Shown: one piece after another, positions 5,501 through 60,740 of the stretch
Numbering within the stretch: position 1 is the first letter of the stretch
How the letters are laid out: every line of letters begins with the position of its first letter
NCBI GenBank assembly: GCA_033239005.1
Contig: BSQZ01000098.1
Location: 370,001-434,000 of the forward strand
Direction: 5' to 3'
Source of the DNA: Lamellibrachia satsuma
Lineage: Eukaryota; Annelida; Polychaeta; Sabellida; Siboglinidae
DNA: 64,000 nucleotides
Translations under genes and position numbers: made by a program
The notes under the pieces: generated by a model
Seen by the model: the letters and a program-made list of their open reading frames with translations, nothing else
The model's database searches: none
What the model was told of the DNA's origin: nothing

Positions 5501-6406
5501 CGGTCGGTCGGCTGCTTCTCGGTCGAGGAGAGTCCTGACGTTCCATTGAGCAATTGATAGTTGTTCCTAGCTGATTTTTCACTGTTGACGGAAGATGAGG
5601 TCGAGCAGCGCGGTCCTTGGTAACGACGACCGGTCCGGTATGGTAATTCGTGCGGTTGTGCATTTCATGAGAGCTGCTTGCAAAAAGTGTTGAAGTGCTG
5701 CTGGCTTTTGCAAGTTACTAGCGGCACTCTCTCGGGGAGCAAACAGAGGTATCACACCGGCAAGAACACGTCAAGACAGGCGCGAGCTATTTGTCCCTGC
5801 AGTGGCTGGTCGGGAGATGTTGGGAGTTCCATTCATCAACCACCCTTGATGCTGTCACAATGACATGGTTTTCTGTTAGGGTTTGCTCCCTTAGCCTTCG
5901 GTTCTGTCGAGAACCTGTATCACAAGGCAGTGATTTTCAACTCTGCAATGCAGGGGCGTCAAACTCCCTGAGGTATTGTAGTACCAGAGGTAATGTTATA
6001 CTTGCATACCGCCAGTACCAGATACAAACATCGCTACTGCCCGACACTGACTATTTACCCATAGTTGGGGGATTGGAATGGTGACTGTCGGGACGCATCC
6101 ACTCGCCGGTGGGCCCAGCACACGACACTTATGGGGCTCCAATCTACTCCGAGATCTCTAGCACATTTGCCTGGGGCCGCAGGGTACCCAGTATCCGCAG
6201 TGTACCACGAGGAGGTTGTGCTAGAGTCTTGTCTATGGAGAGGCTATGTACCAGCAGGGGAGACTTACGCACTCGGCTCCCTTTACACTCCAAGGAGCTA
6301 TCTGGCGGCTGTAGCTGAAAGCGAGAGTATGAAGCAAGAGCTACACACTACACACTACACTACAGCACTAGGCGCATCACAAAGACCTGTGTTGACACAA
6401 CACACC
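2545..6406 (-). mobile_element. Non-LTR retrotransposon (LINE A), broken
   Basis: A 3.86-kb minus-strand insertion bounded by the 9-bp direct repeat ATTAGTCAT, lying inside a 59-bp minisatellite. The 3' end on the element strand finishes in a short GATGATGA-type run at about 2,545-2,552. About 740 bp upstream of the coding part (5,664-6,406) would be the 5' untranslated region. The coding part has an AP-type endonuclease followed by a reverse transcriptase. The encoded protein resembles elements common in mollusc and fish genomes, but I cannot assign a clade with confidence. Confidence 0.9.
2582..5663 (-). pseudogene. LINE A endonuclease/reverse transcriptase, disabled
   Basis: The coding region reads from about 5,663 down to 2,582 across several frames. 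In order it shows an AP-endonuclease (IAALCETRFSESGSL near 5,450; LLIGDFNVRIGRDNDKW near 5,120; CWTDHHMLRSKVAF near 4,830) and a reverse transcriptase (GNYRGISLLSIAGKIFARIL near 3,900; FVDFTKAFDTV near 3,700; GVKQGCVLAPTLFS near 3,530; ELLYADDSALV near 3,350). The C-terminal region has EFTYLGSTISSDGRID and AEAWTVYRRQVKKL. Two frame changes (near 5,290 and near 3,945) and at least two in-frame stops (near 3,203 and 2,792) break it. It cannot make full-length protein and would be immobile without a helper copy. Confidence 0.9.
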
Positions 6407-9884: not shown

Positions 9885-10061
9885 TTGGAGGTCGGCTATG
9901 TTAGCGTATGTCAGCTTTGCCAACGTTATTGCGTAGGAACTTCAGGCCGAGCGTGGCTTTCCTTGTTATCGCAGTGAGTCTCGTGTCAAATTCCTGGAGA
10001 AGGTGGTCTAGAAATGGTAGGAATACAAAGTGTAGCCAGCATATTTCTGGGGTGTCTGCAT

Positions 10062-11012
10062 CCACGTTGTTTGTCATGGTCTGCCTCCACGTTGTTTGTC
10101 ATGGTCTGCCTCCACGTTGTTTGTCATGGTCTGCCTCCACGCTGTTTGTCATGGTCTGCCTCCACGTTGTTTGTCATGGTCTGCCTCCACGTTGTTTGTC
10201 ATGGTCTGCCTCCACGCTGTTTGTCATGGTCTGCCTCCACGTTGTTTGTCATGGTCTGCCTCCACGTTGTTTGTCATGGTCTGCCTCCACGCTGTTTGTC
10301 ATGGTCTGCCTCCACGCTGTTTGTCATGGTCTGCCTCCACGTTGTTTGTCATGGTCTGCCTCCACGTTGTTTGTCATGGTCTGCCTCCACGCTGTTTGTC
10401 ATGGTCTGCCTCCACGTTGTTTGTCATGTTCTGCCTCCACGTTGTTTGTCATGGTCTGCCTCCACGCTGTTTGTCATGGTCTGCCTCCACGTTGTTTGTC
10501 ATGGTCTGCCTCCACGCTGTTTGTCATGGTCTGCCTCCACGTTGTTTGTCATGGTCTGCCTCCACGTTGTTTGTCATGGTCTGCCTCCACGTTGTTTGTC
10601 ATGGTCTGCCTCCACGTTGTTTGTCATGGTCTGCCTCCACGCTGTTTGTCATGGTCTGCCTCCACGTTGTTTGTCATGTTCTGCCTCCACGTTGTTTGTC
10701 ATGGTCTGCCTCCACGCTGTTTGTCATGGTCTGCCTCCACGTTGTTTGTCATGGTCTGCCTCCACGTTGTTTGTCATGGTCTGCCTCCACGTTGTTTGTC
10801 ATGGTCTGCCTCCACGTTGTTTGTCATGGTCTGCCTCCACGTTGTTTGTCATGGTCTGCCTCCACGTTGTTTGTCATGGTCTGCCTCCACGTTGTTTGTC
10901 ATGGTCTGCCTCCACGTTGTTTGTCATGGTCTGCCTCCACGTTGTTTGTCATGGTCTGCCTCCACGTTGTTTGTCATGGTCTGCCTCCACGCTGTTTGTC
11001 ATGGTCTGCCTC
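10062..11012. repeat. 25-bp minisatellite derived from transposase coding sequence
   Basis: About 38 copies of a 25-bp unit containing CTGCCTCCACGTTGTTTGTC. The minus strand reads RQTMTNNVEAD, the hAT segment that normally links the upstream AGTETAIS segment to DTPE..VFLPFLDHL. The two flanks are exactly these segments. The unit length of 25 keeps all three plus-strand frames open, which gives spurious frames of 321-440 codons. Confidence 0.93.
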
Positions 11013-11163
11013 ACACAGTGCCCTTGTATCGAGATCGCTGTCTCTGTCCCAGCCATGTTGACCATCTCGGCAGTCGTCTCGTAGATCTCACTGTACTCCG
11101 CATGTACAATTTGTCTGATGTCGATAACGATGTCCTTTACCTGAGTGACTTCTTCGTAGGCCT

Positions 11164-11500
11164 GGAGAACATCCTGCGTAGAACCCTGGAGCAGCTTGCT
11201 GAGGTCTATGATGGAGAACATCCTGCGTAGAACCCTGGAGCAGCTTGCTGAGGTCTATGGTGGAGAACATCCTGCGTAAAACCCTGGAGCAGCTTGCTGA
11301 CGTCTATGATGGAGAACATCCTGCGTAGAACCCTGGAGCAGCTTGCTGACGTCTATGATGGAGAACATCCTGCGTAGAACCCTGGAGCAGCTTGCTGACG
11401 TCTATGATGGAGAACATCCTGCGTAGAACCCTGGAGCAGCTTGCTGAGGTCTATGGTGGAGAACATCCTGCGTAGAACCCTGGAGCAGCTTGCTGAGGTC
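11164..11500. repeat. 49-bp minisatellite derived from transposase coding sequence
   Basis: About seven copies of a 49-bp unit containing GGAGAACATCCTGCGTAGAA. On the minus strand it encodes DLSKLLQGSTQDVL, the hAT segment lying between SSFIVAFQVNLCMF and QAYEEVTQVKDIV. Confidence 0.92.
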
Positions 11501-14605: not shown

Positions 14606-14669
14606 TCACCTGCCGAGCGTTTGACGAAGGTTGTTGACCATTTTGACCAAATCAGATATGTCATCACCT
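14606..14669 (-). CDS. NUP88: NUP88 exon 15 (stop)
   Basis: Acceptor TTATTTCAG|A; encodes [18 protein letters not shown] and ends LGR-TGA. It aligns with the human C-terminus EGEHIREMVKQINDIRN. The stop overlaps a potential donor (CAG|GTGAGC), so an extra downstream exon is not excluded. Confidence 0.85.
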
Positions 14670-17600
14670 CTGAAATAAATGTCAGTGTTGTCGTGATTAT
14701 ATTATTCAAATCAAAACAGAAATTAGTGGATTATTTTTGGGCATTTGGTAGATGGTGAGAAGATAGGTGACTGAAGGGTAGCTGAGGGTGGCTGAGGGTG
14801 ACTGAAGGGTGGCTGAAGGGTGATTGAAGTGTGGCTGAAGGGTGGCTGAAGGTTGGCTGAAGGGTGGTGAACGTGAAAGGTTCTACTGGCACTGGCAGAC
14901 CCCAAGCAACACAGCCAATGTTGCTAAATAACGATGTAACATCACTGTGTCAGAGAGCAGAGTATTTATGATCTCAAACAAAGCGAGTAGAGCAACTGAT
15001 GTGGCCTGTTAGGGCAGGACACATTCCAAGACTACATCTGTAAAAACGTCACAAAAGTGCTTTAATCAATCAATTTCAATGTTACGTGGTTTCACAACTC
15101 TTGCTGACAATGGCTGCACCAGTGAATTACTGCAGTAGTTTATGTCCAAGTAGATCAATGTTTCTGACCTCTTGAACTGTTGCAAGTATTAGAAAGTGGG
15201 TATACCTAAAGTGAAATTAACATAATGTAACTTTTCCACATCAATTTCTGAACTGACGGTTTGAGTGTACCATGCTGGTGTTTCAAAACTCTAGCAGTTT
15301 TGTTTTTATAACTATAACAATAACTATATAATATAATTATAAATACAACTATAACTACATAATGTAATTATAACTATAACAATAATTACATGATACAATT
15401 ATAACTATAACAATAACTACAGAATATAATTATAACTATTAGACAATCACATACTCCTTCTTCAGCATTGTCTTCAGTTGTTTGCTCTGGGCCTGGTCGA
15501 AGCCGGAGCCGACAACCACCTGCGCTCTCTGGTGTTCAGCGATCTGCTTCTCCTGATAATCCTTCTTCTGGCGCAGCTAAAACAGGTATGGATATAAAAT
15601 TGTAATATCACATAGCTAGGATGTTTAAATGTTGATGACACAAAATTATTAACAGATGCAATATCCCATAAAACAGCTGGAGAAGACGGCGATTAATGCT
15701 ATTAGAATTTCTGTTTTAAATAATTTGTGATGGTAAATATTTTACTGGAATAAAGATAAAACCAAAAAGTATAACATTCACCTTGATATACACATTACCA
15801 TTAATAAAAAATCCAAATGTTAGATTTTTATTTGACTGTTCTTCTAATTCCTTTAAATTCATCGAAACATTAAAATAAAACAAAGTAGGGTAACAAACTA
15901 TTGCATTCGGATGTTTCAACAAGTGACCACACAGAAATTGTACTTTGGATTAGGGATAGTTGACAAATTGTCAATGGTGATTTATTGTCTGCCACTAATG
16001 TAACAAAACTTACTTATTTCATTTCATCATCAAATCATGTATTTTCACAAATAATAGAAAATAAAAGATGACAATAGTAACATGTATTGAATGGATATTT
16101 TTAACCAAACAAGATGTTATAAATACTGATAAATTTAAAACAGTCAGGAAGACCTGTGATTTATACTAGTTTTTTTAATGTTTGTTTTGTACAACTTCTG
16201 ACAGTATATATACTGCAGCACCAAAGGTCGTATAATATTATTGATTTAGATTCACTTTGAAAATCGGAAAGTTCATAGAATGCAGATATACGAAAACCCC
16301 CAACTAGCTCTGTTTCAATTAACCAATAAAAACTGTTGAGTGACACCTTAAAAAAACACCTGACCCAGTCAGACCCACGGTAGGTAAAGTTCACCTGTTC
16401 GATCATCTGCTTCATGCGTCGAATGTTGTCCTCAATGGTGGTCAACTCCAGCTTCATGTTTGTCTCAGCATCAGACAGGTGAGGCAGTTTCGACTGAAGC
16501 TTGCGAAGAATACTCTCCAGTCTGTCACAACATTTACGAAGACAAGGATACTCTCCAGTCTATCACAACACGTAGGAAGACAAGAATACTCTCCAGTCTG
16601 TCACAACATTTAAGAAGACAAGGATACTCTCCAGTCTATCACAACACGTAGGAAGACAAGAAAACTCTCCAGTCTGTCACAACACGTAGGAAGACAAGAA
16701 TACTCTCCAGTCTGTCACAACACGTAGGAAGACAAGAATACTCTCCAGTCTGTCACAACACGTACGAAGACAAGAATACTCTCCAGTCTGTCACAACACG
16801 TACGAAGACAAGAATACTCTCCAGTCTGTCACAACACGTAGGAAGACAAGAATACTCTCCAGTCTGTTACAACATTTAAGAAGACAAGGATACTCTCCAG
16901 TCTATCACAACACGTAGGAAGACAAGAAAACTCTCCAGTCTGTCACAACACGTAGGAAGACAAGAATACTCTCCAGTCTGTCACAACACGTACGAAGACA
17001 AGAATACTCTCCAGTCTGTCACAACACGTACGAAGACAAGAATACTCTCCAGTCTGTCACAACACGTAGGAAGACAAGAATACTCTCCAGTCTGTCACAA
17101 CCCGTAGGAAGACAAGAATACTCTCCAGTCTGTCACAACACGTAGGAAGACAATAATACTCTCCCGTCTGTCACAACACGTAGGAAGACAAGAATACTCT
17201 CCAGTCTGTCACAACACGTAGGAAGACAAGAATACTCTCCAGTCTGTCACAACACGTAGGAAGACAATAATACTCTCCAGTCTGTCACAACACGTAGGAA
17301 GACAAGAATACTCTCCAGTCTGTCACAACACGTAGGAAGACAAGAATACTCTCCAGTCTGTCACAACACTTAGGAAGACAAGAATACTCTCCAGTCTGTC
17401 ACAACACTTAGGAAGACAAGAATACTCTCCAGTCTGTCACAACACGTAGGAAGACAATAATACTCTCCAGTCTGTCACAACACTTAGGAAGACAAGAATA
17501 CTCTCCAGTCTGTCACAACAGTTAGGAAGACAAGAATACTCTCCAGTCTGTCACAACACTTAGGAAGACAATAATACTCTCCAGTCTGTCACAACACTTA

Positions 17601-20600
17601 GGAAGACAAGAATACTCTCCAGTCTGTCACAACACTTAGGAAGACAAGAATACTCTCCAGTCTGTCACAACACTTAGGAAGACAAGAATACTCTCCAGTC
17701 TGTCACAACACTTAGGAAGACAAGAATACTCTCCAGTCTGTCACAACACTTAGGAAGACAAGAATACTCTCCAGTCTGTCACAAGACAAGGGTCAACATG
17801 TATATCCCTGATACTCATACATATTATTAGACAAATAAATGCTGGTTTACATAAGTGATTTGTTCTTCAACTGGCCGGGTGACACTATGTTGTTTGACAA
17901 TGTGGAGCTAAATTATGTGTGCATTTAAATGAGCGACTGATCTAGACACAGTGACCTAGATATTGACTTGCGCCACTGATTTGAGCATCGATAGCCATGA
18001 CGGGTGCAGCTTCTGTTGATTGCTGATTGGCTGCTGCTTGAGGTGAAATTGTGGAAAGGAGTCTTTAATTGCCTATGCTCCACTAGGGGGTTAAAAGGCT
18101 CTTGTCACAGAAATAGTCATCCTGGGAAATGTTCTCACACGTGATAATTTATCTCAAAGATTGACAGAGTGAGTGTAAAGTCTCAAACAAATCTCAAAAC
18201 AGATAACCCCTTCACCTATCATTGAGGGCGTCCTGCCGCTCATTTGCCTCCTCGTACTTTTCTGCGAGGGCATGTGCCCAGTTCACCAGTTGACCCTTGG
18301 TCTGCTGAATCTGCTGCAGGTCACTCATCTGTTGGGTCTTGATGTCTCGCAGCAGTCGAATCCTACAGAACACCAGCACTGAGGGACCAACTCAAAACAC
18401 CAGCACTGAGGGACTAACTCAAAACACCAGCACTGAGGGACCAACTCAAAACAGGGCTGCAGCAACATTTGTATTTATGCAGAATAACAAAGCAAGTCCA
18501 GCATAGAGTGAAATCGACCAAATTAATGATAGTCAATCTACCAATTAACGTACCAGCAACTACGCCAGCGTTCATCATCAATATGACAAACATTAACACA
18601 GCAAGCAGCTGGCCCCCAGTGGTATTTAGTACTATTTACTCATAACACCTACAATACCCAGATACATTACCACCGTCTAACAAACACTGATGATATTATT
18701 TCATTGTTTCCGGCAGCCATCTGCTACAAGTACTACCTATATCAATGGCTAGCATTTACAATTCACACTCAGGGGGTCACTCTGCCTTCAAACCGTATTG
18801 GTGGGGATCACTCTGCCTTCAAACCGTATTGGTGGGGGTGACTCAGCATTCAAACCGTATTGGTGGGGGTCACTCTGCCTTCAAACCGTATTGGTGGGGG
18901 TCACTCTGCCTTCAAACCGTATTGGTGGGGGTCACTCTGCCTTCAAACCGTATTGGTGGGGGTGACTCAGCATTCAAACCGTATTGGTGGGGGTCGCTCT
19001 GCCTTCAAACCGTATTGGTGGGGGTGACTCTGCCTTCAAACCGTATTGGTGGGGGTGATTCTGCCTTCAAACCGTATTGGTGGGGGTCACTCAGCATTCA
19101 AACCGTATTGGTGGGGTGACTCAGCATTCAAACCATATTGGTGGGGGTGACTCAGCATTCAAACCGTATTGGTGGGGGTGACTCTGCATTCAAACCATAT
19201 TGGTGGGGGTGACTCTGCATTCAAACCATATTGGTGGGGGTGACTCTGCCTTCAAACAGTATTGGTGGGGGTGACTCTGCATTCAAACCATATTGGTGGG
19301 GGTGACTCTGCCTTTAAACCATATTGGTTGGGGTTACACTGCATTCAAACCGTATTGGTGGGGGTGACTCTGCATTCAAACCGTATTGGTGGGGGTGACT
19401 CTGCCTTTAAACCATATTGGTGGGGGTGACTCTGCATTCAAACCATATCAGTGGGGGTGACTCTGCCTTCAAACTGTATCGGTGGGGGTCACTCCGCCTT
19501 CAAACTGTATCGGTGGGGGTCACTCCGCCTTCAAACTGTATCAGTGGGGGTCACTCTGTCCACTACCATAGAACTGACTGCTTCAGCGGTATGTCAAAGG
19601 AAGGAGGGCGAGGGCAAAGAATTCACATGAACGGATTGATTAAAAAGTGAGATCAAATTGAACACTGCTCTTGCTTATATAGCGGCCAAACTTTGCGCTG
19701 ATTGGTTGGAATAATTAAGTGCAACGATGTATCTCGCTGTGCAGGAGAAGTTCGGATGTGCTCTCACAACTGTCACAATGTTTACATCTGTATTTTTGCA
19801 CTTGGATAATATGTTAACATTTCAATGAGCGTATAACCTAATCAGTATTTTAACAAGGCATTATATTGCTGGTGCAGGTGGCATTTGAACACCACTGAGT
19901 GTTTGGTGATGTATACTTTCATGTCACTGTTGAGGGGAGACATGGTGCATCTTAGGTGAGGAAGAAATATCTACATCAGCCTCACCTTTTCAGTATCTCT
20001 GCCCGAGCCAAGTCCAACTTTTGCATATGCTCCTCACGGAATACTTGCGTCACTCGACTGAGCAGTTGGAAACACTCCTTCATACTAACTTCTGTGTCCT
20101 TGGATGACCTTGAAAATACAGCAATGGACACCAGTAAAAAAACAGTTCAACCAACAGCTTAAAGCTACAAGATTCCTACTATATGTAAATTGAGCTAATT
20201 CAAGCTGGGGCGTGTGCATGGAGGAGAGTGGAAGGGGTGACGGGAGATAGACATATATCTCGGAAGTTAAAAGGAAAGGTGCTTACCTCGCGCATAACAT
20301 ACGTCTAGAGACTATGGCAATGATGGAAAAACAACAAGAGAAACTGCAAGTTTGCGAGAATTACTGGGTGAGAAGAATTGCGGTACTGAAAAGAATAGAC
20401 AAGCGAAGAATGGAGGAGCTGAGGGAGGAAGTTGGTGCGAGAGAGAGTCTCACGAGGAAGGTGAGGAGATGGTGAGGAGATGGGCTGGACATGTGGAAAG
20501 AATGAAAGGGGAACGGTTGACGAAGAGAGTGGATGTGCTTAGAGTGGAGGGAAGAAGGAGATGGGCTGGACATGTGGAAAGAATGAAAGGGGAACGGTTG

Positions 20601-23600
20601 ACGAAGAGAGTGGATGTGCTTAGAGTGGAGGGAAGAAGGAGATGGTGAGGAGATGGGCTGGACATTTGGAAAGAATGAAAGGGGAACGGTTGACGTACGC
20701 AAACGCGGTAGTCACAAATAAATGAATTGCAACATTAGTGTCAAAAAAAGTAAACGATTTCTGCCTGTGTATCAGTAAGAAGCGAAATAACAATATAATA
20801 ACAAATATGTTTCCCTGAATCATTATAAAATTAATTCAGTTGAATCGCCAGTGCAAAGTTTGGACTAAGTGCGATGTTTGCTTTAGCGTTCATTTGGACA
20901 CTGACCTGCACCCATTCACCAATTAATGTTCATGTAAGCTGCACATTTGCTTCCGTGAGTGGAGCCAAGTGGTTTATTTATTTAAATGATCATTGTTTAT
21001 TTCAAACACTGATTAAAAACTAAAATTAACCTGTTTTAGTTTTCTTTCAGCTGTTTAACTGACCCAGATTTCTTCCTGATAGCGAGCAGCAGTGAGGTGT
21101 AGCGAGATGCTGCGAACTAGTCGTAATTTTCTGGAGGCATTTTGTGAGTCAGCAAATTATGTTAATGAAAACTTTTTTTGTTTTTTTGTGTGTGGTTTAA
21201 ACAAATTAAACAACAGTTAAAATATGCATGAGAACAGCTATGGAAATCATGTGGCATCGCCGATAGTGCCGCAGCCAGCACGGTTGTGATATAAGTGAAA
21301 CTCTACCGAGTGAAATTGACATTTGTACTGTCACTTGTCATGTCATGTCATGTCATGTCATGTCATGTCATGTCATCGTCAAAGAAGAACATAGTAGCAG
21401 AAATTATTCGAAATGGTGGTGGCCCACCAGGCCAGCAAAATATGAAAACTTGTGGCCTGAACTGGCCCGATGGCCTTAAAAAGGTCTCCAGGCTACCCAT
21501 CAGTGCAACATCATATTGATGATATAGATACAGGAGCATACTTGATGAGGAGGTTGGAGGGTGTAAGAGAGGGCGACAGAGACAGGGGCGTAGTTGATGA
21601 GGGGGTTGGAGGGTGTAAGAGAGGGCGACAGACACAGGTGCATAGTTGATGAGGGGGTTGGAGGGTGTAAGAGAGGGTGACAGAGACAGGGGCATAGTTG
21701 ATGAGGGGGTTGGAGGGTGTAAGGGTGAGCGACAGAGACAGGGGCATAGTTGATGAGGCGGTTGAAGGGTGTAAGAGAGAGCGACAGAGACAGGTGCATA
21801 GTAGATGAGGGGGTTGGAGGGTGTAAGAGAGGGCAACAGAGACAGGGGCATAGTTGATGAGGGGGTTGGAGGGTGTAAGAGAGGGCGACAGAGACAGGTG
21901 CATAGTTGATGAGGGGGTTGGAGGGTGTAAGGGTGAGCGACAGAGAGAGAGGCATAGTTGATGAGGGGGTTGGAGGGTGTAAGAGAGGGCGACCGAGACA
22001 GGTGCATAGTTGATGAGGGGGTTGGAGGGTGTAAGAGAGGGCGACAGAGACAGGGGCATAGTTGATGAGGGGGTTGGAGGGTGTAAGAGTGGGCGACAGA
22101 GACAGGATCATAGTTGATGAGGGGGTTGGAGGGTGTAAGGGTGAGCGACAGAGACAGGGGCATACTTGATGAGGGGGTTGGAGGGTGTAAGGGTGAACGA
22201 CAGAGACAGGGGCATAGTTGATGAGGGGGTTGGAGGGTGTAAGAGAGGGCGACAGAGACAGGTGCATAGTTGATGAGGGGGATGGAGGGTGTAAGGGAGG
22301 TTGACAGAGACAGAGGCATACTTGATGAGGGGTTGGAGGGTGTAAGAGAGCGAGGTAGTGACAGAGGCACACTTGATGATGGGTTGGAGGGTGTGAGAGG
22401 GCAACAGAAACGGGGCGTACTTGATGAGGGGGTTGGAGGAGCTTCGTTGCAGCAGGGAGCGGATGTGTTGATCAAATGGCTCTCGGTAGAGTTTCTTGAG
22501 TGGAGACGGGACCCTCGGGGCCGGCTTCTCTGACAGCAGTGGCAAGGGAGGTGTCCGATGGTGCTGGCTAAAAGAAGAATGATTCAGGTCGTACATACAA
22601 GAAAGCTGTCTGGTGGATGTACCATATGTATGTATTCAATTTTGTATAAAACTGTTAATTTTAGAACACAAAATTTTTTATTTTTAACCTATTAGATGAC
22701 AAGGTTATGCATACAAATCCTGTTCTAATCCTAGCTTTATTGGAAAATTCTCAGTGACACTGTGCTCAAAATTATGTAGCTAAAAGAATACAATATTTAT
22801 AATTACCAGTTGTTTTTTTTCCAGCAGAGGCCATTCTAGGATTGACTCCGGTGCATTAATTTGACTATTTTATAAGCTTAAACAAAAGTCCAATGGAGAG
22901 AGTGCCACTCAGACATTAGGAAGACATGTCCAATGGAGAGAGTTCCACTCAGACATTAGGGAGACATGTCCAATGGAGAGAGTTCCACTCAGACATTAGG
23001 GAGACATGTCCAATGGAGAGAGTTCCACTCAGACATTAGGAAGACATGTCCAATGGAGAGAGTGCCACTCAGACATTAGGAAGACATGTCCAATGGAGAG
23101 AGTTCCACTCCGACATTAGGAAGACATGTCCAATGAAGAGAGTGCCACTCAGACATTGGGGAGACATGTCCAATGGAGAGAGTTCCACTCAGACATTAGG
23201 AAGACATGTCCAATGGAGAGAGTTCCACTCAGACATTGGGAAGACATGTCCAATGGAGAGAGTTCCACTCAGACATTAGGAAGACATGTCCAATGGAGAG
23301 AGTGCCACTCAGACATTAGGGAGACATGTCCAATGGAGAGAGTTCCACTCAGACATTAGGAATACATGTCCAATGGAGAGAGTGCCACTCAGACATTAGG
23401 AAGACATGTCCAATGGAGAGAGTTCCACTCAGACATTAGGAATACATGTCCAATGGAGAGAGTTCCACTCAGACATTAGGGAGACATGTCCAATGGAGAG
23501 AGTTCCACTCAGACATTAGGAAGACATGTCCAATGAAGAGAGTTCCACTCAGACATTAGGAAGACATGTCCAATGGAGAGAGTTCCACTCAGACATTAGG

Positions 23601-26600
23601 AAGACATGTCCAATGGAGAGAGTGCCACTCAGACATTGGGGAGACATGTCCAATGGAGAGAGTTCCACTCAGACATTAGGAAGACATGTCCAATGGAGAG
23701 AGTTCCACTCAGACATTGGGAAGACATGTCCAATGGAGAGAGTTCCACTCAGACATTAGGAAGACATGTCCAATGGAGAGAGTTCCACTCAGACATTTGG
23801 AAGACATGTCCAATGGAGAGAGTTCCACTCAGACATTAGGAAGACATGTCCAATGGAGAGAGTTCCACTCAGACATTGGGAAGACATGTCCAATGGAGAG
23901 AGTTCCACTCAGACATTAGGAAGACATGTCCAATGGAGAGAGTTCCACTCAGACATTGGGAAGACATGTCCAATGGAGAGAGTTCCACTCAGACATTCGG
24001 AAGACATGTCCAATGGAGAGAGTTCCACTCAGACATTGGGAAGACATGTCCAATGGAGAGAGTTCCACTCAGACATTAGGAAGACATGTCCAATGGAGAG
24101 AGTTCCACTCAGACATTGGGAAGACATGTCCAATGGAGAGAGTTCCACTCAGACATTAGGAAGACATGTCCAATGGAGAGAGTTCCACTCAGACATTGGG
24201 AAGACATGTCCAATGGAGAGAGTTCCACTCAGACATTAGGAAGACATGTCCAATGGAGAGAGTGCCACTCAGACATTGGGAAGACATGTCCAATGGAGAG
24301 AGTTCCACTCAGACATTAGGAAGACATGTCCAATGGAGAGAGTGCCACTCAGACATTGGGAAGACTTGTCCAATGGAGAGAGTTCCACTCAGACATTGGG
24401 AAGACATGTCCAATGGAGAGAGTGCCACTCAGACATTGGGAAGACATGTCCAATGGAGAGAGTTCCACTCAGACATTGGGAAGACATGTCCAATGGAGAG
24501 AGTTCCACTCAGACATTAGGAAGACATGTCCAATGGAGAGAGTTCCACTCAGACATTGGGAAGACATGTCCAGTGGAGAGAGTTCCACTCAGACATTGGG
24601 AAGACATGTCCAATGGAGAGAGTTCCACTCAGACATTGGGAAGACATGTCCAATGGAGAGAGTTCCACTCAGACATTGGGAAGACATGTCCAATGGAGAG
24701 AGTTCCACTCAGACATTGGGAAGACATGTCCAATGGAGAGAGTTCCACTCAGACATTGGGAAGACATGTCCAATGGAGAGAGTTCCACCCAGACATTGGG
24801 GAGACATGTCCAATGGAGAGAGTTCCACTCAGACATTAGGAAGACATGTCCAATGGAGAGAGTTCCACTCAGACATTGGGGAGACATGTCCAATGGAGAG
24901 AGTTCCACTCAGACATTAGGAAGACATGTCCAATGGAGAGAGTTCCACTCAGACATTGGGGAGACATGTCCAATGGAGAGAGTTCCACTCAGACATTAGG
25001 AAGACATGTCCAATGGAGAGAGTTCCACTCAGACATTGGGAAGACATGTCCAATGGAGAGAGTTCCACTCAGACATTAGGAAGACATGTCCAATGGAGAG
25101 AGTTCCACTCAGACATTGGGAAGACATGTCCAATGGAGAGAGTTCCACTCAGACATTAGGAAGACATGTCCAATGGAGAGAGTGCCACTCAGACATTGGG
25201 AAGACATGTCCAATGGAGAGAGTTCCACTCAGACATTAGGAAGACATGTCCAATGGAGAGAGTGCCACTCAGACATTGGGAAGACATGTCCAATGGAGAG
25301 AGTTCCACTCAGACATTAGGAAGACATGTCCAATGGAGAGAGTTCCACTCAGACATTGGGAAGACATGTCCAATGGAGAAAGTTCCACTCAGACATTAGG
25401 AAGACATGTCCAATGGAGAGAGTTCCACTCAGACATTGGGAAGACATGTCCAATGGAGAGAGTTCCACTCAGACATTAGGGAGACATGTCCAATGGAGAG
25501 AGTTCCACTCAGACATTAGGAAGACATGTCCAATGGAGAGAGTTCCACTCAGACATTAGGAAGACATGTCCAATGGAGAGAGTTCCACTCAGACATTAGG
25601 AAGACATGTCCAATGGAGAGAGTTCCACTCAGACATTAGGGAGACATGTCCAATGGAGAGAGTTCCACTCAGACATTAGGAAGACATGTCCAATGGAGAG
25701 AGTTCCACTCAGACATTAGGAAGACATGTCCAATGGAGAGAGTTCCACTCAGACATTAGGAAGACATGTCCAATGGAGAGAGTTCCACTCAGACATTAGG
25801 AAGACATGTCCAATGGAGAGAGTTCCACTCAGACATTAGGAAGACATGTCCAATGGAGAGAGTTCCACTCAGACATTAGGGAGACATGTCCAATGGAGAG
25901 AGTTCCACTCAGACATTAGGAAGACATGTCCAATGGAGAGAGTTCCACTCAGACATTAGGGAGACATGTCCAATGGAGAGAGTTCCACTCAGACATTAGG
26001 AAGACATGTCCAATGGAGAGAGTTCCACTCAGACATTAGGGAGACATGTCCAATGGAGAGAGTTCCACTCAGACATTAGGAAGACATGTCCAATGGAGAG
26101 AGTTCCACTCAGACATTAGGGAGACATGTCCAATGGAGAGAGTTCCACTCAGACATTAGGAAGACATGTCCAATGGAGAGAGTTCCACTCAGACATTAGG
26201 GAGACATGTCCAATGGAGAGAGTTCCACTCAGACATTAGGAAGACATGTCCAATGGAGAGAGTTCCACTCAGACATTAGGGAGACATGTCCAATGGAGAG
26301 AGTTCCACTCAGACATTAGGAAGACATGTCCAATGGAGAGAGTTCCACTCAGACATTAGGGAGACATGTCCAATGGAGAGTTCCACTCAGACATTAGGAA
26401 GACATGTCCAATGGAGAGAGTTCCACTCAGACATTAGGGAGACATGTCCAATGGAGAGAGTTCCACTCAGACATTAGGAAGACATGTCCAATGGAGAGAG
26501 TTCCACTCAGACATTAGGGAGACATGTCCAATGGAGAGTTCCACTCAGACATTAGGGAGACATGTCCAATGGAGAGAGTTCCACTCAGACATTAGGGAGA

Positions 26601-29600
26601 CATGTCCAATGGAGAGAGTTCCACTCAGACATTAGGGAGACATGTCCAATGGAGAGAGTGCCACTCAGACATTAGGAAGACATGTCCAATGGAGAGAGTT
26701 CCACTCAGACATTAGGAAGACATGTCCAATGGAGAGAGTTCCACTCAGACATTAGGGAGACATGTCCAATGGAGAGAGTTCCACTCAGACATTAGGGAGA
26801 CATGTCCAATGAAGAGAGTGACACTCAGACATTAGGAAGACATGTCCAATGGATAGAGTGCCACTCAGACATTAGGGAGACATGACGACTTATATAAACG
26901 GAAGAACGATACATTTGCATGACATACAGGAGGGGTAGAACAATACACTCGCATGACTTACAGGAGTGGCAGAATGATACACTCAAGTGACTTACATGAG
27001 TGGCAGAATGACACATTTGCGTGACTTACAGGAGTGGCAGTATAATACACTCAAATGACTTACAGGAGTGGCAATACGATGCACTCGCAGAATGATAGAC
27101 TCGCATGACTTACAGTGGAGTGGCAGTAAGATACGCTCCCGTTACTTACAGGAGTGGCAGTATTATACACTCGTTGACTTACAGGAATGACAGAATGATA
27201 GACTTCCGTGACTTACAGGAGTGGCAGTATGATATACTCGTTGACTTACAGGAATGGCAGAATAACAGACTTGCGCGACTTACAGGAGTGGCAGTATGAT
27301 ACACTCGTGTGATGCCGTCAGACACAGCAGGGTTGATCCAAGCAGTGGGTCATCCGTCACGCTCATGCCACAAACTGGTGCAGGATTACTGGCAAACAAC
27401 AACACGGCATTTCATCACTGACATCAGCAACTTGTCATTTCATCACTTCTGTCAATCAAAACTGAAACCTGAAACTGTGACAGACAAAGAAAGAGCAGCA
27501 GATACACAAATATGGAGAAAGACGCATAACAAAGAGTTAAGTACATGTTACGTCTTAATTCAAGCATATCTGAATATCCTTAAAGAATGATTCATATCAT
27601 TTCAAAGTATTGTTTTTGTTTACATGAAAAAGAAAATGTAGGCTGTAGACTATGTATATTTTATTATTGATATTAAATTTATTACTTATGTATGAGGCTC
27701 TCACTCACAAAATGTATGAGGCTCTCACTCACAAAGTGTATGAGGCTCTCACTCACAAAATGTATGAGGCTTTCACTCACAAAGTGTATGAGGCTCTCAC
27801 TCACAAAATGTATGAGGTTCTCACTTACAAAGTGTATGAGGCTCTCACTCACAAAATGTATGAGGTTCTCACTCACAAAATGCGTTAAGCCTCAAAATCA
27901 CATAAAATCACTTAAATGGTGGTTTTGGGCTACCATCAACTTGATAGGGCGGAGGTAAACAATTTGTGTCATAATGTATACATCGCTTAACAAACACAAC
28001 CATGTTACATGGACTGTCCATACACAACCATGTTACTTGGACTGTCCAAACACAACCGTGTTACCTGGACTGTCCAAACACAACCATGTTACCTGGACTG
28101 TCCATACACAACCATGTTACCTGGACTGTCCATACACAACCATGTTACCTGGACTGTCCATACACAACCATGTTACCTGGACTGTCCATACACAACCATG
28201 TTACCTGGACTGTCCACACACAACCATGTTACCTGGACTGTCCAAACACAACCATGTTACCTGGACTGTCCATACACAACCATGTTACCTGGACTGTCCA
28301 CACACAACCATGTTACATGGACTGTCCAAACACAACCATGTTACCTGGACTGTCCATACACAACCATGTTACCTGGACTGTCCACACACAACCATGTTAC
28401 CTGGACTGTCCATACACAACAGTGTTACATGGACTGTCCACACACAACCTTGTTACCTGGACTGTCCACACACAACCATGTTACATGGACTGTCCATACA
28501 CAACCATGTTACCTGGACTGTCCACACACAACCGTGTTACCTGGACTGTCCATACACAACCATGTTACATGGACTGTCCACACACAACCATGTTACATGG
28601 ACTGTCCACACACAACCATGTTACCTGGACTGTCCACACACAACCATGTTACCTGGACTGTCCACACACAACCATGTTACATGGACTGTCCACACACAAC
28701 CATGTTACCTGGACTGTCCACACACAACCATGTTACCTGGACTGTCCACACACAACCATGTTACCTGGACTGTCCACACACAACCGTGTTACCTGGACTG
28801 TCTATACACAACCATGTTACCTGGACTGTCCACACACAACCATGTTACATGGACTGTTTAGACACAACCATGTTACCTGGACTGTCCATACACAACCATG
28901 TTACCTGGACTGTCTATACACGTGTTACCTGGACCGTCCACACACAACCATGTTACCTGGACTGTCCACACACAACCATGTTACCTGAACTGTCCACACA
29001 CAACCGTGTTACCTGGACTGTCCACACACAACCATGTTACCTGGACTGTTTAGACACAACCATGTTACCTGGACTGTTTAGACACAACCATGTTACCTGG
29101 ACTGTCCATACACAACCATGTTACCTGGACTGTCTATACACAACGTGTTACCTGGACCGTCCACACACAACCATGTTACCTGGACTGCAGTGGCTTGGTA
29201 CAGACCAGGTGCTCCACAATGGCCTGCTGATCCGGACCAACTTCCAAACACTCTGCTTTCTGCTGAGCTGCAAACACCAGATAACATTGGTCATTTCTGA
29301 CTACAGCATTGAGACAATCCTCAATACAGCCACACAAGGTAAATTTATTGAGACAATGCTCAATACAGCCACACAAGGTCAACTCATTGAGACAACGCTC
29401 AATACAGCCACACAAGGTCAACTCATTGAGACAACGCTCAATACAGCCACACAAGGTAAATTTATTGAGACAATGCTCAATACAGCCACACAAGGTCAAC
29501 TCATTGAGACAACGCTCAATACAGCCACACAAGGTCAACTCAATGAGACAATGCTCAATACAGCCACACAATGTCAACTCAATGAGACAATGCTCAATAC

Positions 29601-32600
29601 AGCCACACAAGGTCAACTCAATGAGACAACGCTCAATACAGCCACACAAAGTCAACTCAATGAGACAATGCTCAATACAGCAACACAAGGTCAACTCAAC
29701 GAGACAATGCTCAATACAGCCACACAAGGTCAACTCATTGAGACAATGCCCAATACAGCCACACATGGTCAACTCATTGAGACAATGCTCAATACAGCCA
29801 CACAAGGTCGACTCATTGAGACAACACTCAATACAGCCACACAAGGTCAACTCATTGAGACAATGTTCAATATAGCCACACAAGGTCAACTCAAATTTCC
29901 TGGCTCAATTTTATGCCAGTAATATTCTTCTCTTCCAAAATGTTTAGTTCAGTCTGTGCCTTGATAACAACTGTACGCTGTGAAATAACTCTTCGTTTTG
30001 CTAATTATAAAACTGATTATTACACATGTTTCACTGTAACATTAATTAACACACATTTTTCACTGTATAAACACCTATCTTCTTTACAGAACTGTTGGAA
30101 TGATTTTTTCTAAGGCAGTGGTAGAAACAACTACCTCCACTACAGAACTGTTGGAATGACTTTATAATGGGCAGTTGTAGAAACACCTATCTTCGTTACA
30201 GAACTATTGGAATGACTTTATCCACGACAGTAGTAGAAACACCTACCTTCACTACAGAACTGTTGGAATGATTTTATTCACTGCAGTAGTAGAAACACCT
30301 ATCTTCACTACAGAACTGTTGGAATGACTTTATCCATGGCAGTTGTAGAAACACCTACCTTCACTATAGAACTGTTGGAATGACTTTATTCACTGCATTA
30401 GTAGAAACACCTATCTTCATTACAGAACTGTTGGAATGATTTTATTCACTGCAGTAGTAGAAACACCTACCTTCACTACAGAACTGTTGGAATGACTTTA
30501 TCCATGGCAGTTGTGGAAACACCTACCTTCACTACAGAACTGTTGGAATGACTTTATCCACTACAGTTGTAGAAACACCTACCTTCACTACAGAACTGTT
30601 GGAATGACTTTATCCATGGCAGTTGTGGAAACACCTACCTTCACTACAGAACTGTTGGAATGACTTTATCCACTACAGTTGTAGAAACACCTACCTTCAC
30701 TACAGAACTGTTGGAATGACTTTATCCACGGCAGTACGACTGTATGTAGTCCAGCACCGTGAACGCAATAGTAGCGGTCACAGAACTGGGGATCTACAGC
30801 AGCAAACACAGGATCGATACAGATAACCTTAATGAAAGATAGACTTCAAAATTAAAAAAACATTAAAAATAATAAGATGTGTGGCATAACTACCAATCAT
30901 AGGGAAGCACACCAAGTAATTGTAAACTTCTTATGACTGGATGACTGGGCAATAATTAGACATAACTACCAATCATAGGGAAGCACACCAAGTAATTGTA
31001 AACTTCTTATGACTGGGCAATAATTAGACATAACTACCAATCATAGGGAAGCACACCAAGTAATTGTAAACTTCTTATGACTGGGCAATAATTAGACATA
31101 ACTACCAATCATAGGAAGCACACCAAGTAATTGTAAACTTCTTATGACTGAGCAATAATTAGACATAACTACCAATCATAGGAAGCACACCAAGTAATTG
31201 TAAACTTCTTATGACTGGGCAATAATTAGACATTTCTCAAGTTGTTCATATAAGCAATAAATATTTAGCAAATTAAAGTTAAATGCAAATATAACAGTTT
31301 CTTATTATTGGTACCCAAAAGCAGTGAGGTAAATTTGATTGTCCCCCCTCCCCCCCCCCCCGACACCTATGTTGCGCCAGAATTTCACACCTGCCATCTC
31401 AGCATGGAATTTAGGAGTCACCTTTGATAATAATTAAAATTTTAGACAGCATATTTCACAAACTTGTCGTTGCTGCTTTTATCACATTCATGATCTTCAT
31501 TGTATTTGTTGGTACATCTTTTGCTGTTGCCAAAACTATTGTAACTGTTCTTGCTAGCATCAGGCTTGGCTATTTTAATTCCATTTATCATAATATTGTT
31601 CTCAAGGATATCTTGAAACTTCAATGTGTGCACAATTATTTGGCAAGGGTAGTTACCCTGTCTCTTCGTTTCTCTCACTCAGTACCACTTCTTAAATCAT
31701 TGCATTGATATTACATTATTTTCAAGATCTGTACAATTACCTATCATGCACTTTCATCCAAGCAACCAGCATATTTACATTCACTGCTCACTCTGATGTA
31801 TAACAAAACCAATATACCTTTCTGCAGCCGAATCACACATGTATAATCGTCAAGGATTGGTTCATCCGTCTCCACGGAGATGGTTGTCAATGACAACTCC
31901 AACTCGAGATTCTCAAACACATAAAGTGTGCTTGTGGGCAGCGGGCGATATATGCCCCATGATGCACTGCTTGCCTCCCAGGGGGTCTCAGACTGAAATA
32001 CATGACACAATACAATAAATGATGAAACTGGTGTGTCTCTGTTCATGGCACATACACATACTCCTTGTGTAATATTATTATTATGGAATACTTCCCAGAG
32101 ACGTTGAGTTGGTGTTGGAGTGAACAGGTCACCACGGGGAGGGGGGGTGAAGTGAGGTGTAAAGTGTTCTGAACAGTCCTAAGGACTGGATACTGCACTA
32201 CAGGTATATAGAAACTTACCTGGATATGGCACTACAGGTATATAGAAACTTACCTTTACTTCCGACCTTTACTGTTACAAATTTATAAGGAAAAAAGCCC
32301 ACATATTACGCAGATAAATTGGTGAAGATAAACTGTTTGTTACAGTATTTTTTTGGTTCCCTTCCCTAAACAAATGTGCTTACAGAACTATTAGAAAATT
32401 ATGGTATTTTTGCATTCTATATATCAAATCTACCTAAATATTTAGTGAACTGTAAACAAGATGTGATCCAATAATAATGTATAAAATACTTCTGTTGCAC
32501 TAAAATCCTTGGTAGACCCAAGACCCAAGACCGGCACCAAAACAAAAGGGGTTAAGCAGTTCATAATCAATAAATAGTTCCAGTTGTAAACAGTTGGATT

Positions 32601-35600
32601 GGTACGCTGGGAAGCTGTAGAGGATAAGCAAGTTTAAACAGGTGGGTTTTTAGTTTATGGTGAAATGTTACAATATTTCCTACAGACTGAACACTAACGG
32701 GGAGTGAGTTCCACAGAGTCGGTGCAGCAACTGAACAGCTCTAGTTACGACATTTGTCTTAACACTGGGAGTAAAAAGTAGATTAGAATTAGATGATCGA
32801 AGCTGTGTGGGCTGTCTTGCAGGAATGAGCAGTGAATGTAAACATACTGGTTGATTGGATGAAAGAGCTTGATAGGTCTTGTACAGATCTTGAAAATGAT
32901 GCGATATCAGACAGGGAACCAATGCAATAATGCGATATCGGACAGGGAGCCAATGCAATAATGCGATATCGGACAGGGAGCCAACGCAATAATTTAAGAA
33001 GTGGTACCGAGTGAGAGAAGCAAGGAGACCGGGTAACTACCTTTACAAAACAATTTTGTACACGTTGAAGTTTCAAGATGTCCTTGAGAGGAATATTATG
33101 ATAACGGGAATTGTAATAATCAAGCCTACTACTAACAAGAGCAGTTGCAGTATTTTTGCCAATAGCAAGACATATATCGGCGAATACAACGAAGGTCACG
33201 AATATGATAAAAGCAGCAACAACAAGTTTGTGAAATATGCTCTCTAAAATTTGTATTATCACCAAAGGTGACTCGTAAATTCCTTCATTAAAATATCATA
33301 GGCATTTTGTACAGAAGCAACATAACTCTGCCATTCCCCACCACTCACACTGGATGAAGTGTTGAGGTCCCTCTCCTCACACAGCACGACACAGTGGTAT
33401 AATTTACCCTCACACGTTGCTATGGCAACTACAGGGGGAGTACTACTGAGACAGATAATGGCGCTAGCGTCAGTGCCGTAGTTGTCCTCAGCCGGTGGGA
33501 ACATCGTCAGGGGTCCTTGCAACACCGGGCGGTTCAGTCTGAAACATCAGGTGTTTCTGTTTGAATGGAATTGAACAAATCGACGTAAACTTTATGTAGT
33601 TGCTCATTTGTGACATTATATGATCAAATACTTTTTTGAAAATTATAGTATTAGCAAAATAACTTTGATGGTGGCATCATCAAAGTTCCCCAAATTGAAA
33701 TATGACATGAAATATTAACTAAAGCCACCCTCACTGTATGATAATTGATGTTACACAGAACAACCATTTCGGCCCTTCAATTTCCCGCTTAAGTCTATGA
33801 AATATGAATTTTGGTTGGATATTTCTGGGTTGTAATGGACAGTATCTTTAAATGCCTATTTTAAACTTGATGGTGTACAAATCACTATGTTCTTAAGTTC
33901 TCGGTTTTTGTAACTGATATATCCTCTTAGTATACATTTCATCATAAATGTAACATTTGTGAGGAAATTCAATATTTGCTTTTCTACAGAATGTAAAAAA
34001 ATTTGGCCAGCCAATATCTGGAAACTTTCCACAGTTCTCCATGAATTAAAGCAGTTAGCATCGTCTACAAACAGCCATGTGACCAGTGACTGTGTATAAT
34101 CACTATTACTGATGCTAACCCTTCTGTAGTGAGAGTTGAGATGAGGAGGTAGACATCTCCATTTCCCCACAGGATGTAGATTGGCCAGGCACTGTCTGTC
34201 TTTGCAGCTGCTGAGGCACTTTTCTGCACAAGGTCAACGGGAGGGCCAAAGTCAAAGGCGACTGCGACATCTCCAAGAACAACAGGGATTTGTAGCCGGG
34301 ACGGTGAGTCCACGTACGAGTCATCACCGACTGTATCACCCAGCGGACATGTCTGCTTTGCGTACTCGGGATTGGTGAGATCAAATATCCTGAAACATCA
34401 TTTTGTCACACATTTATATTCATGGGTTTTGTATAACATTTTGTTTCCATATATAGTACAATTTTTTTCAAATAAAAAATGATTAGACGATAATTAAGTT
34501 CCATTGTTTTGATCATTTGGGCTAGCAAGTATCAGTTGGCCACACGCCCGATAATCGTTTAACCTGAGTAGGATTTGATAATTCTAGGACAATGGTGTCT
34601 GTTTTTAAATATCCCATGACAAGAACTTTCTAGAATTATTAAGACGACAGAACTTCTGTAATAGGTTTAGTAAACGAATGGTGCCCTGTAGGGTTGTTGA
34701 AAAGTCACCAAACTTTCTTCAATACATCATCAAAATATGAACACTCCATGGGATATGAACACTCCATTGGATATGAACACTCCTTGGGATATGAACGCTC
34801 CTTGGGATATGAACACTCCTTGGGATATGAACGCTCCTTGGGATACGAACATTCCTTGGGATACAAATGCTCCTTGGGATATGAACACTCCTTGGGATAC
34901 AAACATTCCTTGGGATACAAATGCTCCTTGGGACATGAACATTCCTTGGGATACGAATGCTCCTTGGGATATGAACGCTCCTTGGGATATGAACATTCCT
35001 TGGGATATGAACACACCATTGGATATGAATGCTCTTTGGGATATGAACACTCCTTGGGATATGAAAGCTCCTTGGGATATGAACACTCCTTGGGATACGA
35101 ACATTCCTTGGGATACAAATGCTCCTTGGGATATGAACACTCCTTGGAATACAAACATTCCTTGGGATACAAATGCTCCTTGGGACATGAACATTCCTTG
35201 GGATACGAATGCTCCTTGGGATATGAACGCTCCTTGGGATATGAACACTACTTGGGATACGAATGCTCCTTGGGATATGAACACTCCTTAGGATACGAAC
35301 ATTCCTTGGGATACGAATGCTCCCTGGGATATGAACACTCCTAGGGATACAAATGCTCCATGGGATATGAACGTTCCTTGGGATATGAATGCTCCTTGGG
35401 ATACGAACACTCCTTGAGATATGAACACTCCTTGGGATATGAACACTTCTTGGGATATGAACACTTCTTGGGATATGAACACTCATTGGGATATAAACAT
35501 TCCTTGGGATATGAACGCTCCTTGGGATATGAACATTCCTTGGGATATGAACATTCCTTGGGATATGAACACTCATTGGGATATGAACATTCCTTGGGAT

Positions 35601-38600
35601 ATGAACACTCATTGGGATATGAACACTCATTGGGATATGAACATTCCTTGGGATATGAACATTCCTTGGGATATGAACACTCATTGGGATATAAACACTC
35701 CTTGGGATATGAACATTCCTTGGGATATGTATGCTCTTTGAATTACGAACCTCTTCAGAATAAGGTGGTTTGTTTACTTTGGAATCTAATCTAATCATAA
35801 CTAATCAAGGTATTTCCTGAATAGAAACCACCACAATTTTTTTTCTTCAAAATTCACTGATGTGAGAACTACTGGTAATTTCTGCAGTGGAATAGACACT
35901 GAAGATGAATGTTCTAGTATTTCTACCGTAAACAGTTCTGTGGCGTTGGAAATCTCCTAATGTGTTACCTGATGCAGTTGTCATTTGTGAGAAGTACAAT
36001 GTGCATGTCTGTGTTGCTGCCAGGGTGCCACTGGGCATGCAGTAACTGCACGCTCGCATTCAGGAATAGCCTCTCACCAATACATCTCGTCCTGCAACAA
36101 CATTTTGTGGAATAAAAATTAGAAGAGATGATTAAAATACTTATATATATATATATAACACATTACAATAAACAATATATCACAGATAATTAAAAACACA
36201 GGGAAAGTGACACATTCATTTTATTCCTCATATGTTGATTTAAAAACTCTATGTCGATTTTATTTGATAAATGTTTAAAGTATTTCTGATAGATTTACTT
36301 AAACAAATAATGACTAATGAGTACACACGTTCTAAAAAGTTGTTAAACAACATTTTTTTTAAACTTTCATTTACTTTCATTACACATTGTCCTACTTACT
36401 TTCATTACACATTGTTCCACTTACTTTCATTGCACATTGTTCCACTTACTTTCATTACACATTGTCCTACTTACTTTCATTACACATTGTCCTACTTACT
36501 TTCATTGCACATTGTCCTACTTACTTTCATTACACATTGTCCTACTTACTTTCATTGCACATTGTCCTACTTACTTTCATTACACATTGTCCTACTTACT
36601 TTCATTGCACATTGTCCTACTTACTTTCATTGCACATTGTCCTACTTACTTTCATTACACATTGTCCTACTTACTTTCATTGCACATTGTTCCACTTACT
36701 TTCATTACACATTGTTCCACTTACTTTCATTACACATTGTCCCACTTACTTTCATTACACATTGTCCCACTTACTTTCATTACACATTGTCCCACTTACT
36801 TTCATTACACATTGTTCCACTTACTTTCATTACACATTGTCCCACTTACTTTCATTGCACAATGTCCACTTACTTTCATTGCACATTGTTCCACTTACTT
36901 TCATTACACATTGTTCCACTTACTTTCATTACACATTGTCCCACTTACTTTCATTACACATTGTCCCACTTACTTTCATTACACATTGTCCCACTTACTT
37001 TCATTGCACAATGTCCACTTACTTTCATTGCACATTGTTCCACTTACTTTCATTACACATTGTCCCACTTACTTTCATTACACATTGTCCCACTTACTTT
37101 CATTGCACAATGTCCACTTACTTTCATTACACATTGTTCCACTTACTTTCATTACACATTGTTCCACTTACTTTCATTACACATTGTCCCACTTACTTTC
37201 ATTACACATTGTCCCACTTACTTTCATTACACATTGTCCCACTTACTTTCATTACACATTGTCCCACTTACTTTCATTGCACAATGTCCACTTACTTTCA
37301 TTGCACATTGTTCCACTTACTTTCATTACACATTGTTCCACTTACTTTCATTACACATTGTTCCACTTACTTTCATTACACATTGTCCCACTTACTTTCA
37401 TTACACATTGTCCCACTTACTTTCATTACACATTGTCCCACTTACTTTCATTACACATTGTCCCACTTACTTTCATTGCACAATGTTCACTTACTTTCAT
37501 TGCACATTGTTCCACTTACTTGCATAAGACTTTTGAATTTCCATCTTCGAACTGTGCATATTTACCCCACCTGTGGGGCAGCTCAACGACAGTTACCCCT
37601 TTACGACCAACTAGAGCCAGATATGTACCAGTTGTGTTGAATATGATGTTTTCGACGTCGTATGTAGGTGGACATGTGCACATGAACGTCTACATGAGGA
37701 GAAGAAGGAACACATCAGCAACAATGGATCAATGTATTACTTTCTGTATAATTCCTACAACTCTTGTTGTTGCACCTTACTTTCATTGCACCTTACTTTC
37801 ATTGCACCTTACTTTCATTGCGACCTTAAGTTGTACATTGCTGTTGTTGTATTTTAACAGTGACCTTAAGTTGTACATTGCTGTTGTTGTATTTTAATAG
37901 TGACCTTAAGTTGTACATTGCTGTTGTTATACTTTAATAGTGACCTTAAGTTGTACATTGCTGTTGTTATACTTTAATAGCGACCTTAAGTTGTACATTG
38001 CTGTTGTTGTATTTTAACAGTGACCTTAAGTTGTACATTGCTGTTGTTATACTTTAATAGTTACCTTAAGTTGAACATTGCTGTTGTTATACTTTAATAG
38101 CGACCTTAAGTTGTATAATGTTGTTGTTATACTTTAATAGCGACCTTAAGTTGTACATTGCTGTTGTTATACTTTAATAGCGACCTTAAGTTGTACACTG
38201 CTGTTGTTATACTTTAATAGTGACCTTAAGTTGTACATTGCTGTTGTTATACTTTAATAGCGACCTTAAGTTGTACATTGCTGTTGTTATACTTTAATAG
38301 CGACATTAAGTTGTACATTGCTGTTGTTATACTTTAATAGCGACCTTAAGTTGTACATTACTGTTGTTGTACTTTAACACTAACAGTGACCATAAGTTGC
38401 ACATCTTAACACTAACAGTGACCATTAGTTGCACATCTTAACACTAACAGTGACCATAAGTTGTACATATGTTATTGTACCTTAACAACAACCTTAAGTT
38501 GTACAATGACCTTAAGTTGACCATTGCCATGTGCCAATCAGCTAGAGCTATTGCACGTTAACATGTGACTTAATGAGTTTCACATGTTAACTGATGTAAA

Positions 38601-60699: not shown

Positions 60700-60740
60700 A
60701 CAATTTAGTTTTAATTAGTTTGCTACGTTAGCCTTGAATA

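Follow-up and report, generated by a model that had tools for sequence, protein, structure and literature searches.

NUP88 and the arrays at its exon edges

The window analysed here is a stretch of 64,000 nucleotides from Lamellibrachia satsuma (contig BSQZ01000098.1, positions 370,001 to 434,000). On its minus strand it contains a complete NUP88 gene, running from 40294 to 14606, in which six introns contain a minisatellite with a unit extending across the exon boundary. The gene comprises 15 exons (Table 1) that join to 2202 nt including the stop codon, or 733 codons, without an internal stop. Its start and stop codons mark the range 14606..40294 given in an earlier note on this DNA. All 14 introns begin with GT and end with AG; since the exon edges were set from reading frame, homology and GT-AG jointly, this agreement is not independent support for them. 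A Nup88 chain of a solved nuclear pore in the PDB aligns to residues 1–729 of the 733 (E 4e-152), and identity to metazoan NUP88s reaches up to 46% over the full length (Branchiostoma 45%, Owenia 45%, Lineus 46%). In a tree of 25 named homologues, chosen by hand from the 81 proteins found and leaving out unnamed proteins, the protein groups with Paralvinella (93/76) and Capitella (81/95) with weak support. An affinity with amphioxus was considered and rejected: identity to Branchiostoma does not exceed that to Owenia or Lineus, and the position in the tree is, weakly, beside annelids. Judged by this protein, a lophotrochozoan and probably annelid origin is likely.

The repeat units span the donor sites of exons 2, 7, 8, 9 and 10 and the acceptor site of exon 13. 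Arrays were called by Tandem Repeats Finder (TRF), and a second local TRF run was carried out with slightly different settings. TRF split the exon 9 array into several rows, which we merged by hand. Between 2 and 41 exonic nucleotides are included in the units. The overlap is weakest at exon 2, where it amounts to 2–6 nt depending on the run, and at exon 8. In all six cases the array extends exclusively to the intron side of the junction. Among the extra copies mean column identity is 0.93–0.97 in five arrays and 0.85 in the exon 9 array, in which only 4 copies are in register. None of the six unit lengths is a multiple of three, which was considered as a sign of selection but not pressed, as the chance probability is about 0.09. 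The earlier note had described six junction-spanning arrays that grow into the intron only and whose exon-proximal copy is the authentic splice site. Overlap of the TRF calls with the exon ends confirms the six arrays, the one-sided growth holds throughout, and reading frame and homology both point to the exon-proximal copy as the authentic site.

We then compared the overlapped exon ends with 16 NUP88 homologues. Mean identity is 0.65 at exon 10 and 0.56 at exon 9, both above the value for the whole protein (0.416), and 0.44 at exon 13 and 0.41 at exon 7, which is about average. At exons 9, 10 and 13 (16–25 nt of overlap) the overlapped residues are aligned in all 16 homologues, which come from several phyla. 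At exon 7 (41 nt) they are aligned in 15 of the 16; the Tubulanus protein is aligned in part and that of Capitella has a gap. The overlap at these four junctions thus encodes NUP88 peptide that is homologous across phyla. Therefore the exon came first and its edge was copied to form the repeats; judged from the alignments, this establishes the exon edge as the template of the array at exons 7, 9, 10 and 13. The reverse order, in which splice sites shifted into the first copy of a pre-existing intronic repeat so that the exon borrowed from the repeat, could account for the short overlaps at exons 2 and 8, as could a chance resemblance. These two overlaps are too short to decide whether exon or repeat came first. 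Given the alignments at the other four junctions we find such a borrowing scarcely credible as an explanation of the arrays.

Splice signals in the extra copies

Donor sites were scored with a splice-donor matrix. The authentic donor of exon 2 scores 8.7, and 45 sites in its array (AAA/GTAAGT) score 8.1. At exon 8 there are 33 array sites (CAG/GTAACA) equal in score to the authentic donor. The remaining donor arrays contain fewer sites with a score of at least 4: nine donor-like GT sites at exon 9, of which eight match or exceed the authentic donor; seven at exon 7, six of them equal to the authentic donor; and four at exon 10, one of which exceeds the weak authentic donor. When considering only the core dinucleotide, GT is kept in all 46 extra copies at exon 2 and all 42 at exon 8, and AG occupies the acceptor position in all 33 extra copies at exon 13. 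At exon 7 seven of 11 extra copies have GT and the other four AT. At exon 10 only 4/17 extra copies have GT while 13/17 have CT; leaving out the two least similar copies, both of which have GT, the fraction becomes 2/15. Copies of the exon 9 array fall out of register after the sixth, and four of 11 were used for the conservation ranking described below. The dozens of near-identical competing sites that the earlier note had seen are present at exons 2, 8 and 13; the CT and AT copies at exons 10 and 7 show that it overstated the case there.

To compare these arrays with the other tandem repeats (period at least 10) we considered the consensus of each unit. On the gene-sense strand a donor with a score of at least 6.5 was found in four of five junction donor arrays and in 3 of 44 other arrays; on the opposite strand one of the 44 has such a site. 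Counted by TRF rows the junction value is 5/7, as exon 9 contributes two rows, exon 10 lacks the donor and exon 13 is an acceptor array. The contrast narrows when the threshold is lowered; at 5 the numbers are 7/44 for other arrays and 5/7 for junction rows.

Next, we computed the consequence of wrong site choice, taking as decoys the array donors with a score of at least 4 and the upstream copies of the exon 13 acceptor. Use of a decoy is predicted to give an early stop of the kind recognized by nonsense-mediated decay (NMD) in 45/45 cases at exon 2, 7/7 at exon 7, 33/33 at exon 8 and 9/9 at exon 9. The same holds for 32/32 upstream acceptor copies at exon 13 (counting the 32 of 33 copies that match two motifs). 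If the exon-proximal sites are used, the 733-codon frame is intact. At exon 10 merely one of four decoys leads to such a stop. This array is also nearly stop-free, with 0, 1 and 0 stops in the three gene-sense frames over 895 nt. Few stops combined with the loss of most donors are suggestive of selection against harmful decoys in this one case.

The complete retention of the core dinucleotide at exons 2, 8 and 13 would fit a situation in which selection maintains the decoys, for example as a platform for U1 binding or for tuning the NUP88 level via wasteful splicing. The premature stops that mostly follow from decoy use would fit as well, and in human ABCA7 the length of an intronic variable number tandem repeat (VNTR) influences splicing and expression, as described in the excerpts of that study (PMC5954066). 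We therefore ranked the conservation of the splice motif among all rotations of the unit. It ranks 6/25 at exon 2, 29/56 at exon 7, 6/28 at exon 8, 3/34 at exon 9 (four copies only), 31/52 at exon 10 and 15/38 at exon 13. The motif does not regularly rank as the most conserved stretch of the unit, so that selection for decoys is not demonstrated, and selection on splice motifs within the copies was rejected since the motif windows are not uniquely conserved. Moreover, the copies without GT at exons 10 and 7 indicate that an array can persist without splice competence. Taking both sides together we regard selectively maintained decoys as very improbable.

Junction excess and origin of the arrays

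The window is rich in tandem repeats throughout. We counted 54 non-redundant TRF arrays, and those longer than 100 bp cover 37.9% of the window. After the hand merge at exon 9, 22 arrays remain in NUP88, covering 13,872 of its 25,689 bp. In order to assess whether six junction-spanning arrays exceed chance we first shuffled the arrays as rigid blocks inside the introns. Only 0.08 exon-touching arrays are expected, compared to six observed, and nine arrays lie within 40 nt of a junction where 3.09 are expected (P 0.0003). This null is too easily beaten because a founder straddling an exon edge is impossible in it. We therefore used a second null in which each unit is placed randomly on the gene with all arrays collapsed to one copy and wholly exonic placements forbidden. 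For periods of at least 10 bp it predicts 1.86 junction-spanning units among 21 arrays (P 0.008 for six), and for periods of at least 20 bp 1.75 among 18 (P 0.005). With a minimum of 6 exonic nt, 1.52 are expected and six observed (P 0.003); for at least 8 nt the values are 1.43 and five (P 0.011), for at least 16 nt 1.06 and four (P 0.017). All P values are optimistic because the gene was picked for being striking. The 3- to 4-fold excess at junctions is likely real but modest, not extreme, and post hoc. The earlier note had placed it far beyond random placement, which applies to a rigid shift of the arrays; against random founders the excess shrinks to the values given above. The dedicated mechanism or selection that it had proposed is not demonstrated.

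We consider it probable that the junction arrays arose like other minisatellites in a genome very rich in repeats, where some founders happened to lie across junctions and any bias toward junctions is modest at most. Each array would have started with a local tandem duplication of 25–56 bp across an existing exon-intron edge. Slippage or unequal exchange would then have extended and partially homogenised it, as the high identity of the copies suggests. Growth would be confined to the intron side because copies added there remain part of the intron if splicing keeps to the exon-proximal site; exon definition is the probable reason why this site prevails. Where a decoy is used, the premature stop computed for five of the six arrays would expose the transcript to removal by NMD. 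The arrays would thus largely reflect the frequent birth of minisatellites as a side effect, 38% of the window being tandem array. Two precedents speak for this reading: RT-PCR indicates regular splicing of amphioxus mirages (PMC3087553), and the ABCA7 isoform that retains one unit is a minor one (PMC5954066).

Several points weigh against this explanation. The founder null gives 1.1–1.9 junction arrays where four to six are seen, so that pure chance seeding is strained. Of the arrays with at least 10 copies, six of 11 lie at junctions compared to 0.96 expected (P 0.0001), whereas none of the 11 arrays with fewer than 10 copies does (Fisher P 0.012 between the two groups; the 10-copy cut was chosen after seeing the data). 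With the donor threshold lowered to 4, a donor-like site is also found in 13 of 44 other arrays, compared to five of seven junction rows. Longer ABCA7 arrays are described as being accompanied by more skipping of exon 19 and lower expression (PMC5954066, excerpts), and such arrays therefore need not be harmless. In addition, slippage history, exon definition and NMD are for the NUP88 arrays what we infer and not what was observed.

The first two of these points would be accounted for by a junction-tied process that over-produces short tandem duplications at splice junctions genome-wide, with breaks linked to transcription, R-loops or some sequence property of AG/GT sites as conceivable causes. 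That donors and an acceptor are both affected, and that two further arrays near exons 12 and 14 lie 6 and 15 nt from their junctions without being counted as junction-spanning, is also in line with such a process. However, the evidence comes from one gene chosen for being striking, P is only 0.003–0.017 under the fairer founder null, 16 of the 22 arrays in NUP88 have no exon overlap, and no causal feature was identified. We therefore regard junction-directed seeding as a possible but rather unlikely cause. The same tentative standing applies to the wider proposal that junctions are preferred birthplaces of minisatellites, where a process coupled to transcription or splicing lengthens introns stepwise and builds dozens of equal sites in many genes.

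Further features were noticed in the window. Within NUP88 most of intron 9 is occupied by a 40-bp array of nearly 4 kb that adjoins the exon 9 donor array. Outside the gene three long arrays follow each other at 7955–11500. When ranking the open reading frames (ORFs) by codon usage, no gene was recognised near these arrays and no second multi-exon gene was found for comparison among the best 70 of 544 ORFs; besides NUP88 exons the high scorers were one repeat-bearing ORF and an element resembling a long interspersed nuclear element (LINE). The latter consists of several ORFs; they contain a reverse transcriptase domain (PF00078, E 2.5e-31), and a second, endonuclease-like match (PF14529, E 4.6e-05) does not reach the Pfam cut-off. 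A 366-codon ORF with a G-, K-, E- and T-rich repeat has no Pfam match.

Table 1. Exons of NUP88, tandem arrays and other features of the window.
Feature	Position	Strand	Unit and copies	Remarks
NUP88 exon 1	40294-40043	-
NUP88 exon 2	37689-37520	-
NUP88 exon 3	36091-35969	-
NUP88 exon 4	34389-34120	-
NUP88 exon 5	33538-33349	-
NUP88 exon 6	31992-31818	-
NUP88 exon 7	30793-30695	-
NUP88 exon 8	29267-29180	-
NUP88 exon 9	27388-27284	-
NUP88 exon 10	22567-22421	-
NUP88 exon 11	20108-19986	-
NUP88 exon 12	18362-18216	-
NUP88 exon 13	16521-16395	-
NUP88 exon 14	15576-15455	-
NUP88 exon 15	14669-14606	-
Exon 2 donor array	36371-37525	-	25 bp, ~46 copies	exonic overlap 6 nt (2 nt in local TRF run)
Exon 7 donor array	30064-30735	-	56 bp, 12 copies	exonic overlap 41 nt, coding 13 aa
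Exon 8 donor array	27994-29187	-	28 bp, ~43 copies	exonic overlap 8 nt
Exon 9 donor array	26903-27308	-	34 bp, ~12 copies	exonic overlap 25 nt, coding HECIILPLL
Exon 10 donor array	21526-22439	-	52 bp, ~18 copies	exonic overlap 19 nt, coding SNPLIK
Exon 13 acceptor array	16506-17784	-	38 bp, ~34 copies	exonic overlap 16 nt, coding RLESIL
Array near exon 12 acceptor	18369-18453	-	27 bp, 3.1 copies	short; ends 6 nt before acceptor
Array near exon 14 donor	15306-15439	-	31 bp, 4.3 copies	starts 15 nt past donor
Intron 9 array	22888-26884		40 bp, 100 copies	96% matches
Three consecutive arrays	7955-11500		38 bp, 51 copies; 25 bp, 38 copies; 49 bp, 7 copies	outside NUP88
LINE-like retroelement	2585-5714	-
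366-codon ORF	59617-60714	-	75 bp (25 codons)

Relation to known junction-spanning repeats

The earlier note knew of no described case of this kind, a view that did not hold up: amphioxus mirages and the VNTRs of human ABCA7 and CBS precede the arrays found here. Among the matches listed in the open-licence literature we recognised no annelid or genome-wide cases of junction arrays. The excerpts of an earthworm metallothionein study describe intronic minisatellites, none of which is stated there to span a junction.

Six junction arrays in one gene are unusual compared to the single examples in amphioxus and humans and may shed light on the origin of such repeats. NUP88 also represents a natural experiment in splice-site choice, in which one sequence is present up to 46 times and the exon-proximal copy is apparently used. 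If a junction excess held genome-wide, it would point to an unrecognised process that creates tandem duplications where exons end. It would also make it possible to test directly whether introns grow and are gained by junction duplication, as proposed from amphioxus globins (PMC3087553).

The CBS VNTR, c.1444_1467+7(16_21), has a 31-bp unit and is listed as exon 13-intron 13 in the excerpts of two papers (PMC2630376, PMC1395315). By its name it comprises coding positions 1444–1467 (24 bases) and 7 intronic bases in 16–21 copies. The NUP88 units likewise cover exonic and intronic bases. Unlike the NUP88 arrays, the CBS repeat as described is located at a single junction, and its polymorphism in the population is known.

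In the ABCA7 VNTR, as the excerpts describe it, the first two bases of a 25-bp unit in intron 18 are the exon 18 donor and copy number ranges from 12 to 427 (PMC5954066). Frameshifting isoforms result from a cryptic exon 18 acceptor and from retention of one unit, averaging 14% and 2%, presumably in that order; length polymorphism is known, and longer arrays are associated with Alzheimer risk (PMC5954066). A donor within the repeat unit and an array running into the intron are shared by NUP88. By unit consensus this applies to exons 2, 7, 8 and 9, and at exon 10, where the consensus has CT, to the exon-proximal copies only. In contrast to NUP88, the ABCA7 unit as described starts at the donor without an exonic part, and a single junction is involved.

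Amphioxus mirages are described in Adh3, the globins BflGb6 and BflGb9 and TnC, with similar repeats in PGBD5; units in Adh3 measure 10–72 bp, and the clusters show concerted evolution from which their edges are excluded (PMC3087553, PMC3902484, both in excerpts). As in these mirages, the NUP88 units span the exon-intron boundary, their lengths of 25, 28, 34, 38, 52 and 56 bp fall inside the Adh3 range, and many, although not all, copies carry AG/GT signals. The globin mirages as described are low in copy number (6 and 3 units for the two BflGb6 haplotypes), whereas the six NUP88 arrays have about 12–46. Regular splicing of mirages is indicated by RT-PCR (reverse transcription PCR) in the same excerpts (PMC3087553), while the NUP88 arrays were examined here in the DNA of a single haplotype. 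We therefore think it likely that the NUP88 arrays belong to the same kind of junction-spanning minisatellite as the mirages and the ABCA7 and CBS VNTRs. All cases called mirages in these excerpts are cephalochordate and NUP88 falls weakly near annelids, a difference of taxonomy and not of structure. This suggests that dense arrays of the mirage type also occur outside the cephalochordates.
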